Source: Chloroflexota bacterium (lineage in GTDB: Bacteria > Chloroflexota > Anaerolineae > Anaerolineales > UBA11858). Taken from it: a stretch of 32,331 nt of DNA. The DNA lies in NCBI GenBank assembly GCA_018263575.1, contig JAANWX010000032.1, forward strand, positions 1 to 32,331. The letters are read 5' to 3'. A program made the position numbers and the translations under genes. Below, one piece after another: positions 11,930 to 26,354 of this stretch (position 1 is its first letter; every line of letters starts with the position of its first letter). The notes beneath the pieces were generated by a model. That model searched no databases and was not told the origin of the DNA. It saw nothing but the letters and a program-made list of their open reading frames with translations.

Positions 11930-11946
11930 CATTGGAGAAACCTTTT

Positions 11947-14613
11947 ATGGATCAATTTACATTTACTATCGATGGACAAACAATCACCGCCGAAGATGGC
12001 ATGTCCATAATGGACGCCGCTTTGGCGAACGATATTTACATCCCCTATCTTTGCCATCACCCTGACCTGGAACCTGTGGGGGCCTGCCGCCTGTGCGGCG
12101 TTGAGGTGGATGGCAGGCCGATGGTCATGTCGTGTATGACCCCCGCAAAAGAAGGCACTGACGTAAGAACCAACAGCCCGGCAATTTACCAGGCCCGCAA
12201 AGTGGCCATGGAATTGTTGATCATGGATCATGACATGGACTGCCTGGCCTGTGAAGCGGCTGATGATTGTGATCTTCTGAAAGTTTCGGCTTACCTGGGC
12301 ATACAACCGGAGCAATTAGAAGGTTTGCGCCCCCTGGGCAGACAACTTCCCATTGACGATTCGAATCCCTATTTCCAATTCGACCCCAACAAATGTATAC
12401 TTTGCGGGATTTGTGTTCGCACCTGCAACGAGATTGTCGGCTTAGGCGCGCTGGGCTACATCAACCGTGGGATCGAAACCGTCGTTGGCACCTTTGGCGA
12501 TAAAGGATTTGTCGATTCAATCTGTGAATCTTGCGGAGAATGTGTCGTTCGTTGCCCGGTAGGATCTCTGGCGCCAAAGAAACCGCAATTGGCCGCCCGA
12601 GAAATAAGTACCATTTGCGCCTACTGCGGCGTGGGATGCGGAATTCATTTCGGAGTCAGGGGAGACGAAATCGTCAGCACCCGAGCCGACCGGGAAAGCC
12701 CCGCCAACCGGGGCAGCCTGTGCGTCAAGGGACGCTATGGCTTCAACTTCATCAACCACCCCGACCGGCTAACCACGCCCCTCATCAAAAAAGACGGCCA
12801 ATTTGTGGAATCTTCCTGGGAAGAAGCCATCACCCTCGTAGCTGATAAACTCTCCAACTACCATGGCGAAGAATTCGCGGCCCTGACCTCAGCCAAATGC
12901 ACCAACGAAGATAATTACGTCGTGCAGAAATTCACCAGGGCGGTGATGGGAACCAACACCATTGACCATTGTGCCAGGCTTTGACACTCTCCTACTGTGG
13001 CCGGTCTGGTCACAACATTTGGCAGCGGCGCAATGACCAACTCCATCGCGGAAATCGATGACGCGGGAACCATTTTCGTCATTGGCTCGAACACTACCTC
13101 GGCGCACCCGGTGATTGGACAGCGCATGAGAAGGGCGGCTCGAAACGGGGCCACGATCATCGTTGCTAATCCCAAGGAAATCGACCTTGTGCGTTCCGCC
13201 TCCTACTTCATTCAGCACAAGCCCGGCTCGGACGTGGCCCTGCTGATGGGGATGGCACGCTACATCATCGAGAACGACTTACACGACAAGGAATTCATCG
13301 CCGAACGCTGCGAGAACTTCGAAGCCTTCGAAGAATCCTTAGCACCTTTCACGCCGGAATTCGTGGAAGAAATCACCGGTGTTTCCTGGGAAGAGATTGG
13401 CCAGGTGGCGCGGATTTATGCCACCAACCAACCCGCCTCCATCTTTTACGCCATGGGGATCACCCAGCACACCCACGGGACCGACAACGTGATGGCGACC
13501 GCCAACCTGGCCATGCTGACCGGCTCGGTCGGGAAACCCTCCACGGGCGTGAATCCCCTCCGGGGGCAGAACAACGTCCAAGGAGCCTGCGACCTGGGCG
13601 GCCTCCCTAACGTTTATCCGGGGTATCAGAAAGTGGAAGACCCGGCCATGAAAGAGAAATTCGAAAAGGCTTGGGGGCGTGAACTATCCGGCAAAAACGG
13701 ATTAACCCACACAGAAATTTTTGATGCTATTCATGATGGTACGGTCAAAGCGCTTTACATGGTCGGGGAAAATCCCGCCCTCACCGAAGCGGACGCCAAA
13801 CACGCGCAAAAGGCCCTTGACAAAGTGGACTTTTTGGTCAGCCAAGAAATTTTCCTCTCTGAAAGCGCCGAATACGCTGATGTCGTCTTCCCCGCGGCCT
13901 CATTCGCTGAAAAAGAAGGCACCTTTACCAACACCGAAAGGCGCGTCCAACGGGTTCGGCGCGTAATCCCCCCCAGGGGTAATTCCAAACCTGATTGGTG
14001 GATTGTGACTCAAATAGCCCAGGCGATGGGTGAGAAAGGTTTTGGGTACGAGACCCCTGATGATGTGATGGATGAGATCAACGCGGTCACGCCCATTTAC
14101 GGCGGAATCACCTACGAGCGCGTTGAGGAGATTGGCCTGCAATGGCCCTGCCCCGACGCGGATCATCCCGGAACGAAATATCTGCACAAGGGTGAATTTG
14201 CTCGCGGAAAAGGGCATTTTGTGCCGCTAGTCTACAAGCCCTCCGCGGAAATCACCGATGAGGAGTACCCCCTTATCTTGACGACCGACCGGAGCCTGTA
14301 CCACTTCCACAGCACCATGACCCGCCGCGATTACGGCCTAGAAGCTTTAGACAGTGAGGAATTGGTGAAGATCCACCCCACCGACGCGGAAACGTTGGGT
14401 GTCGAAAGTGGGGATTGGGTTGAAGTAAGCTCCCGGCGGGGGACGGTCAAAGCCCGCGCCCAGGTGACAGAAATTTGTCAACCGGGCCTGTGCTCCATGA
14501 CATTCCATTTCTTCGAAAGCCCCACCAACGAGATCACCAACCCCGCCCTTGACCCGATCGCCAAAATCCCGGAGACCAAAGTGGCGGCGGTGCGAGTCAA
14601 AAAGGTGAGTTGA
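11947..14613 (+). CDS. Selenocysteine-containing formate dehydrogenase alpha subunit (TGA 12982-12984 = Sec)
   Basis: Two ORF-track entries (11932-12984, 12997-14613) are in the same frame separated by a single TGA: ...[32 protein letters not shown]..., the FdhF/FdhA active-site context. N-terminal [2Fe-2S] CHHPDLEPVGACRLC, 2x[4Fe-4S], then CAYCGVGC. GGAG SD before ATG 11947. Confidence 0.93.
12996..13014 (+). promoter_or_regulatory. Bacterial SECIS-like hairpin
   Basis: TGTGGCC-GGTCT-GGTCACA: 7-bp stem (one G.U), 5-nt loop, 11 nt after the UGA. Confidence 0.8.
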
Positions 14614-24420: not shown

Positions 24421-24476
24421 TCGCTCATCACGCATTACTCATTACTCTTTACTCATTACTCATCACGCCCTCACGC
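24421..24476 (+). repeat. Degenerate ACTCATT/ACTCATC 7-nt repeat
   Basis: tcgctcatcacgcattactcattactctttactcattactcatcacgccctcacgc. Confidence 0.85.
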
Positions 24477-24477
24477 T

Positions 24478-25539
24478 TCAAATTCCACGCCTGCGCACTT
24501 CCCGTCTCACCGCTTCACATCGCGCACAGCGCCCATTTTCACACAACAAGGCGGTGGGGTCTTTGCGGATAAGCTCTCGGGTGACGCGAATCAAATTTTC
24601 GAGGGATATGGCCGCGAGCATTGTTGATCTTAATTTCTCTTTTTTGACATAATATTGAATAGGCTGAGATAAGGCGCTAAAACCTTGCGCGCACCCAGGA
24701 AAATTGGGGCATTCTAGGCTTCCTGCCGGGGTAAGCGCCCAACGCATAAATTGTTTTCGCCCAGCCAATTGCTCGGCATGGTGAATGCTGGTATTGGCGG
24801 TCTGGTCAATACCAACAAGCAACACCCAACCTCCCTTATCCGCTAGGACTTCAATGGGGGCCAAGGGATCAGAGAGTTTTTGGGCCTCCAAGGCATCCTC
24901 AACACGCACCCCCGCAAAAGAGAGAATAGGGTGCCGAGAACGCTTGCCATAAGGCTGATCCAAGATAATCTCTGGCAACTTTCCCATGGGGAAACTGGGT
25001 TGTAAATCAGGAGTGAAGAAGAGCGCGTCTCCGTTATCTATGGGCGGATTATCATAGTCCACAGCATTATTCTCTGGCCCTTCCCCGGGAACCGTCATCG
25101 TCTGGTACGTAAACGCCGGGGCCATAATAGGGCCATAAACAGCGTCTAAAGCTCCCCAAAATTTATTCTTTTCCCCCTGTGTATTGCCCAAAATACCTGG
25201 CGAGGCATGAACAATAACGGGTTTATCGGCCGGAATCTCTAACGTTCGAAAAGCATTTACAAGCTCCCGATAAGTCATCTTGGATATCAAGCTTCGTTGA
25301 ATTGGGCTGCGCGCCATGCCATATAATCCAAGAGAATTATCTTTTTCCCATTCATCAATCCAGCAAGCCACAAGGTCGGGATGGACATCATAAATATCAG
25401 CGATTTCCTTAATCGGGTATCCTTGGTGGCTCAACAATAGGCTATGGGCGCGTTTTCTCACTTGTGGCGCCTCATGATTATCGTAAAAAGCCCTCAACTT
25501 AACTTCTTGGGAATCAGACAATGACGAGACCCGTTTCAT
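24478..25539 (-). CDS. Fusion: N-terminal IS630-type transposase helix-turn-helix + AAC(3)-family (aminoglycoside N3-acetyltransferase-like) domain
   Basis: N-term LSDSQEVKLRAFYDNHEAPQVRKRAHSLLLSHQGYPIKEIADIYDVHPDLVACWIDEWEKDNSLGLYGMARSP; C-part VIVHASPGILG, SFPMGKLPEIILDQPYGKRSRHPILSFAGV, PLAPIEVLADKGGWVLLVGIDQTANTSIHHAEQLAG; GGAGG SD before the ATG. Confidence 0.82.
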   Translation of the reverse strand: MKRVSSLSDSQEVKLRAFYDNHEAPQVRKRAHSLLLSHQGYPIKEIADIYDVHPDLVACWIDEWEKDNSLGLYGMARSPIQRSLISKMTYRELVNAFRTLEIPADKPVIVHASPGILGNTQGEKNKFWGALDAVYGPIMAPAFTYQTMTVPGEGPENNAVDYDNPPIDNGDALFFTPDLQPSFPMGKLPEIILDQPYGKRSRHPILSFAGVRVEDALEAQKLSDPLAPIEVLADKGGWVLLVGIDQTANTSIHHAEQLAGRKQFMRWALTPAGSLECPNFPGCAQGFSALSQPIQYYVKKEKLRSTMLAAISLENLIRVTRELIRKDPTALLCENGRCARCEAVRREVRRRGI

Positions 25540-25554
25540 AGTGCCTCCTACAAC

Positions 25555-26331
25555 TTACGCTCCTTGCCATTCAGCTTTTCGTTTTTCTATAAAAGCCCGC
25601 ATGCCTTCTTTTTGGTCTTCGGAAGCAAATAAGAGATAAAATAACCGGCGCTCATCTTCCAGGCCCCCAGCCAAAAAGGTTTCGAAGGCTTTGTTGACCG
25701 CTTCTTTACCGAACAGAACTGCCAAAGGAGCGCGCTGGGCAATTTCCTTGGCCAATGTAAAGGCCTTATCAAAATATTCTTCCACAGGAAGGACATAATT
25801 CACCAGCCCATACTCGAGGGCCTCGTGCGCCGTCAATTTTCGGTCGTTGAGCACCATCTCCATGGCAAGGGCTTTGCCAACGGCCTTGGTCAAACGCTGT
25901 GTCCCTCCGGCCCCGGGAATGACGCCCAAATTAATTTCGGGTTGTCCAAACTTAGCCGTCTCTGAAGCGACCACCATATCGCAGGCCATGGCCAATTCAT
26001 TCCCGCCTCCCAGGCACCAACCAGAAACAGCGGCGATGATGGGCTTCCTGATTTCATGTATTTGGGCGAAGGTGGGAATAAAGTCGCTCTTTAACATATC
26101 TACGGGAGAAGCGGTAGACATTTCTTTAATATCCGCCCCGGCCGCAAAGGCTTTATCGCTCCCCGTGATGAGCATAGCGCCAATTTCCTCTTGGGCGTCA
26201 AAAGCGAACAAGGCATTCATGGCCTCTTGCATAAGCTGCGGACTGAGGGCATTGAGCGCCTTGGGGCGATTGAAACGAATAATGCCTACACCTTCCTTCG
26301 TTTCGTTAAGAATGGTTTTATATTCGGTCAT
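25555..26331 (-). CDS. Enoyl-CoA hydratase/isomerase family protein
   Basis: GVGIIRFNRPKALNALSPQLM, ITGSDKAFAAGADIKEM, AVSGWCLGGGNELAMACDMVVAS, PEINLGVIPGAGGTQRL. Confidence 0.93.
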   Translation of the reverse strand: MTEYKTILNETKEGVGIIRFNRPKALNALSPQLMQEAMNALFAFDAQEEIGAMLITGSDKAFAAGADIKEMSTASPVDMLKSDFIPTFAQIHEIRKPIIAAVSGWCLGGGNELAMACDMVVASETAKFGQPEINLGVIPGAGGTQRLTKAVGKALAMEMVLNDRKLTAHEALEYGLVNYVLPVEEYFDKAFTLAKEIAQRAPLAVLFGKEAVNKAFETFLAGGLEDERRLFYLLFASEDQKEGMRAFIEKRKAEWQGA

Positions 26332-26354
26332 CTTTTCTCCTTGATAGAACATTC

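Follow-up and report, generated by a model that had tools for sequence, protein, structure and literature searches.

In eukaryotes, host genes are well known to have captured DNA-binding domains from transposases, a process aided by splicing; in the vertebrate host-transposase fusion genes, the DNA-binding domain of a transposase has been captured by a host gene. The fused open reading frame (ORF) described here, from one draft genome (121 contigs) of a Chloroflexota (Anaerolineae-related) bacterium, resembles these genes in that a host domain is preceded in frame by the 5′ portion, encoding the DNA-binding region, of a DNA transposon gene, and differs from them in being bacterial, in having no splicing, in being seen in one genome and in that its DNA binding is doubtful. 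No description of a bacterial fusion of this type was found in the literature searched, the coverage of which was partial and gives weak evidence of absence. Among the families related to the two halves, the IS630 (Tc1/mariner-related) transposases share the HTH_23 match and can be aligned up to about residue 78 with 35–43% identity, whereas the fused helix-turn-helix (HTH) is without the rest of the DNA-binding region and the DDE domain, has an acidic core and is joined to an enzyme. The Antibiotic_NAT family is characterized by the motif Tx(hydrophobic)H(hydrophobic)AE (TxxHxAE), whose His/Glu pair activates an amine (the aminoglycoside 3-amine in the known members) to attack acetyl-CoA, and the C-terminal extension of AAC(3)-IVa contains a C3H1 Zn site (PMC8956665). 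The fused enzyme has the TxxHxAE motif in common with the AAC(3) family and the fold in common with AAC(3)-IVa, BA2930, YokD and FrbF, with about 19–23% identity to the solved Antibiotic_NAT structures; AAC(3)-IVa is likewise cysteine-bearing at its C-terminus. FrbF is a phosphonate biosynthesis enzyme, so the same fold also serves biosynthesis. Compared with the AAC(3) family, the fused protein has an additional N-terminal HTH, and its gene adjoins that of an enoyl-CoA hydratase instead of lying in a resistance context.

The features of the locus are collected in Table 1, with positions given in the window, namely the whole stretch of 32,331 nucleotides that was analyzed. The fused ORF was free of internal stops over all its codons and began 15 nt past the stop codon of the hydratase gene on the same strand. 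Its ribosome site, TGTAGGAGGCACTATG, contains a strong Shine-Dalgarno sequence (AGGAGG) four bases 5′ of the ATG, while no Shine-Dalgarno sequence was found before the internal Met88. Pfam HTH_23 matched residues 25–68 (35.1 bits, cut-off 24.6; 1.1e-8), and Pfam Antibiotic_NAT (PF02522) matched residues 109–263 (75.2 bits, gathering cut-off 25; 7.5e-21) within a complete Antibiotic_NAT/AAC(3) domain spanning residues ∼88–350. The two-domain make-up, which is far above chance, was thereby confirmed, and codon usage was equal in the two parts (0.012 each on the same index). The original prediction of a single ORF with a good Shine-Dalgarno sequence, an IS630-like HTH at the N-terminus and an antibiotic N-acetyltransferase-like domain with the quoted motifs was thus borne out, and AlphaFold2, in answer to its proposal of structure prediction, gave both domains folded. 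The CENGRCARC tail that it had pointed out is present and is not special to the fused protein, being conserved in the orthologues.

Table 1. Positions of the fused gene, its parts and its upstream partner in the window.
Feature	Position	Strand	Length or basis
Fused HTH-acetyltransferase ORF	24478-25539	minus	353 aa, ATG start
N-terminal HTH segment of IS630 type (homeodomain-like), residues 1-87	25279..25539	minus	HTH_23, NF033545, alignments, AlphaFold2
Antibiotic_NAT / AAC(3)-fold domain, Met88 to stop	24478..25278	minus	PF02522, orthologue starts, AlphaFold2, Foldseek
C-terminal cysteine stretch (C277, C283, C333, C338, C341), candidate metal site resembling that of AAC(3)-IVa	24481..24711	minus	orthologue conservation
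Hydratase stop codon, 15-nt spacer and Shine-Dalgarno sequence (AGGAGG) of the fused gene	25540..25557	minus	sequence
Enoyl-CoA hydratase (ECH_1), conserved upstream partner	25555..26352	minus	PF00378 1.9e-75

Two other observations were made in the window. Short tandem-like runs of the ACTCATTACTC type occur at positions 24424–24458 and in other intergenic stretches, and similar runs seem to be repeated in further spacers of the window (translations in spurious frames, THYSLL/THHSSL). At positions 11932–14613 (plus strand), a single gene seems to be split into two formate-dehydrogenase-like frames by a read-through TGA at 12982–12984 (context HCARL-TGA-HSPTVAGL), which we take to be the catalytic Sec/Cys position. 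Given this position and a tRNA-Sec match above the cut-off elsewhere in the genome (contig C18, 66.7 bits), the gene very probably encodes a selenocysteine formate dehydrogenase.

The acetyltransferase half belongs to a widespread set of enzymes, with relatives found by protein search in 175 of the 301 sampled genomes of the order. Among the matches listed outside its own genome, none extended upstream of residue 58 and most began at residues 84–90; where the examined matches passed residue ∼85, the extension consisted of hydratase or spacer sequence and held no HTH. Apart from the fused one, the orthologues examined start at the equivalent of Met88 (MTYRELV), and the class-level sample repeated this pattern of orthologues without the HTH. 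The catalytic motif T250-S-I-H253-H-A-E256 is intact in the fused protein. According to an alignment of 36 sequences, His253 is invariant and Thr250 and Glu256 are at least 90% conserved, while the residue after the catalytic His, which is mostly Tyr in the orthologues, is a His in the fused protein and not a hydrophobic residue. The same alignment showed the five cysteines of Table 1 to be conserved across the orthologues, in which the C-terminal tail has the form LLCxxxDCERC. A profile alignment with AAC(3)-IVa reached the C-terminus of that enzyme, and a consensus C-terminal query gave no residue-by-residue match to its zinc ligands. In the AlphaFold2 model of the acetyltransferase domain, the pLDDT was mostly >90, and Foldseek matched the model to BA2930, AAC(3)-IVa, YokD and FrbF with probability 1.00; the target-normalized TM was highest, among the matches listed, for AAC(3)-IVa (6mn3, 0.81). 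Departures from the columns conserved at ≥90% numbered 7 in the fused enzyme part as against 5 and 6 in two sister genes, and no accelerated evolution of the enzyme part was seen, the relative-rate comparison of the example tested not being significant. On these sequence data, the enzyme part looks intact, apparently under normal constraint and with no sign of decay. Judging from the motif and the fold, catalysis would proceed as in the orthologues: His253, helped by Glu256, would deprotonate an amine acceptor, which would attack acetyl-CoA or another acyl-CoA, and the substrate need not be an aminoglycoside. The same genome encodes, on another contig (C44:3820-4356, L002), one more AAC(3)-like acetyltransferase, distant in sequence (30% identity).

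An enoyl-CoA hydratase gene followed by a five-cysteine AAC(3)-fold enzyme gene was observed as a recurrent pair across the order (window 24478–26352; loci L003–L032), and the same hydratase gene precedes the acetyltransferase in 21 related loci. Identity of the hydratase is 86% for the two closest genomes and mostly 62–77% for the others. This order-wide pairing suggests a metabolic function for the enzyme, as an acyl- or acetyltransferase, and speaks against a resistance gene. The autoregulated resistance enzyme offered in the original prediction found no support: the named families nearest to the enzyme are aminoglycoside AAC(3)s, but the scores fall far below the NCBIfam equivalog cut-offs (NF033082, 41 bits against 270), and the conserved neighbor is a hydratase. 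The spacers between hydratase and acetyltransferase range from 3 to ∼490 nt and are non-coding or differently filled. In the two closest relatives, which are of the same genus and whose acetyltransferases are 63 and 58% identical to the fused enzyme, the spacers are 130 and 182 nt long, non-coding and devoid of the HTH; in the fused locus the spacer measures 276 nt, 261 of which code for the HTH segment. A different small gene, with a four-helix-bundle-like look (MKIERFEDLRAWQLARELS...), occupies ∼1009–1500 of the spacer in locus L023, so the spacer seems to be a tolerant landing site.

The arrangement of these loci is compatible with a simple history. The starting state would be an AAC(3)-fold acetyltransferase encoded by the second gene of the hydratase-acetyltransferase pair in the order. 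A stretch of ∼78 codons from the start of an IS630-family transposase gene would then have been captured into the intergenic spacer, its reading frame matching that of the native start Met88, and the 353-aa fusion would probably be translated from a message common with the hydratase. We infer this order of events, while the architecture, the synteny, the absence of the fusion elsewhere and the IS630 relationship were observed. Insertion into the spacer is the simplest history, although neither terminal inverted repeats nor a target duplication was found around the HTH segment. A lineage-specific capture of this kind, which would have placed the start of an IS630 transposase gene before a conserved AAC(3)-fold gene, with a working enzyme and an HTH that is at most a weak DNA binder, is the reading that we consider likely.

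It is unlikely that there is no real fusion and that the arrangement stems from faulty assembly or from an insertion that is recent and decaying, with the enzyme made from Met88 or with HTH and enzyme as separate proteins. The draft state of the assembly speaks for such an artefact, as does the confinement of the fusion to a single sequence from one genome. The gene order flanking the segment, however, matches that of the relatives, which makes a contig chimera at this place unlikely; moreover, the 87 codons are open and compatible with a fold, and it is Met1 and not Met88 that carries the Shine-Dalgarno sequence. The fusion is probably real, as a lineage-specific and new combination of two known parts. 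It was seen in one strain and was absent from the 300 other sampled genomes of the order and from the class-level sample, so the orthologues with the same architecture that the original prediction had called for did not turn up.

For the HTH half, the only NCBIfam match was the IS630 transposase model (NF033545), with 24.9 bits over model positions 1–66 of 299 only, as compared with the curated cut-off of 100 for the full-length transposase with its DDE domain. The nearest relative was the N-terminus of an IS630 transposase on Azotobacter plasmids (43% over 77 aa, E 1e-10), followed by a Halomonas IS630 (40%, 8e-9) and by Chloroflexota IS630 elements (∼35%); the Azotobacter and Halomonas copies each represent the first frame of an element that is disrupted or consists of two frames. 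The homology ends at about residue 78, where the IS630 proteins have GRP, and residues ∼79–87 are probably a linker, formed from the former 5′ spacer now read in frame. No second copy of the HTH was present in its own genome, and 20 other genomes of the family gave one weak match only (30%, E 0.0015), in a transposase-like frame on another contig. Searches of 35 related loci with three HMMs found no HTH remnants (best E >1), and no relatives were found in viral contigs or, by sequence, in the PDB. The source IS630 element was absent from the searches made. In the genome itself, the single clear IS630 copy, a transposase in two overlapping frames (C101:4921-5861, L039/L040), was rejected as the donor, its N-terminus being only distantly related.

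With an IS630 alignment, AlphaFold2 gave a confident helical HTH for the segment of residues 1–87 (pLDDT 92–96 over residues 11–60), for which a Foldseek search of the PDB returned nothing significant (best probability, PAX paired domain, 0.77; E 2.5). The charge of this domain is unusual. The net charge of the core (residues 24–67) is −3, as compared with +1 to +8 in the IS630 homologs (mean +4.0, sd 1.8, n = 30), and in a second set the charge from helix 2 to helix 3 (−6) was lower than in all 34 of the 34 IS630 sequences. Two substitutions, T56L and R63E, affect conserved residues in the recognition helix: Thr56, found in 79% of IS630, is Leu in the fused protein, and position 63, which is R/K in 79% and acidic in none, is Glu. 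Arg28, Lys29 and Arg30 are kept, Arg30 being near-invariant across IS630. In the closest IS630 subgroup, the recognition helix is itself somewhat acidic (−3, −2) with Ala at position 63, so the difference in charge may in part be ancestral. On the charge and residue statistics, the captured HTH would keep its helical fold with a negative core. Retained sequence-specific DNA binding appears unlikely because of the acidic core and R63E, and the captured domain most probably rides along as a passenger or acts as a protein-protein or oligomerization appendage, at most binding DNA weakly.

Against this background, it is decidedly unlikely that the IS630 DNA-binding domain underwent a charge reversal and was exapted as a new DNA-targeting, autoregulatory or protein-binding module of the conserved acyltransferase. 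A functional domesticated DNA-binding acetyltransferase, in which the HTH still binds DNA, such as IS630 ends or the promoter of its own operon, and serves to recruit or regulate the enzyme, is very unlikely. The open frame, the strong Shine-Dalgarno sequence and the high-confidence predicted HTH fold are consistent with it, and so are the three retained basic residues; against it, the core charge lies outside the range of the 30 IS630 HTHs, T56L and R63E alter the recognition helix, just the first DNA-binding subdomain of IS630 is present, and the architecture occurs in no other sampled genome. The original prediction had put such an enzyme forward as a candidate; it is not supported, given the acidic HTH core and given that the fusion is unique among the genomes sampled and the orthologues start at the internal MTYRELV without an HTH, the outcome that the prediction itself had named as refuting. 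An origin of the HTH from a stand-alone HTH regulator gene, as hinted at by some matches of ∼139–156 aa annotated "helix-turn-helix domain-containing protein", is highly improbable, given that the best matches are first frames of IS630 transposases and that the IS630 model alone matches the segment in NCBIfam.

Under the preferred reading, capture of the IS630 5′ end before a working enzyme gene, this bacterial case with its conserved flanking order suggests that a transposase domain can be captured by simple insertion 5′ of a start codon. If the HTH is only a passenger, the case would caution against naming every HTH-enzyme fusion a regulator. The hydratase-acetyltransferase pair is perhaps of greater interest than the fusion itself, and genomes G059 and G158, set against the window, form a before-and-after pair for asking what the appended domain does.
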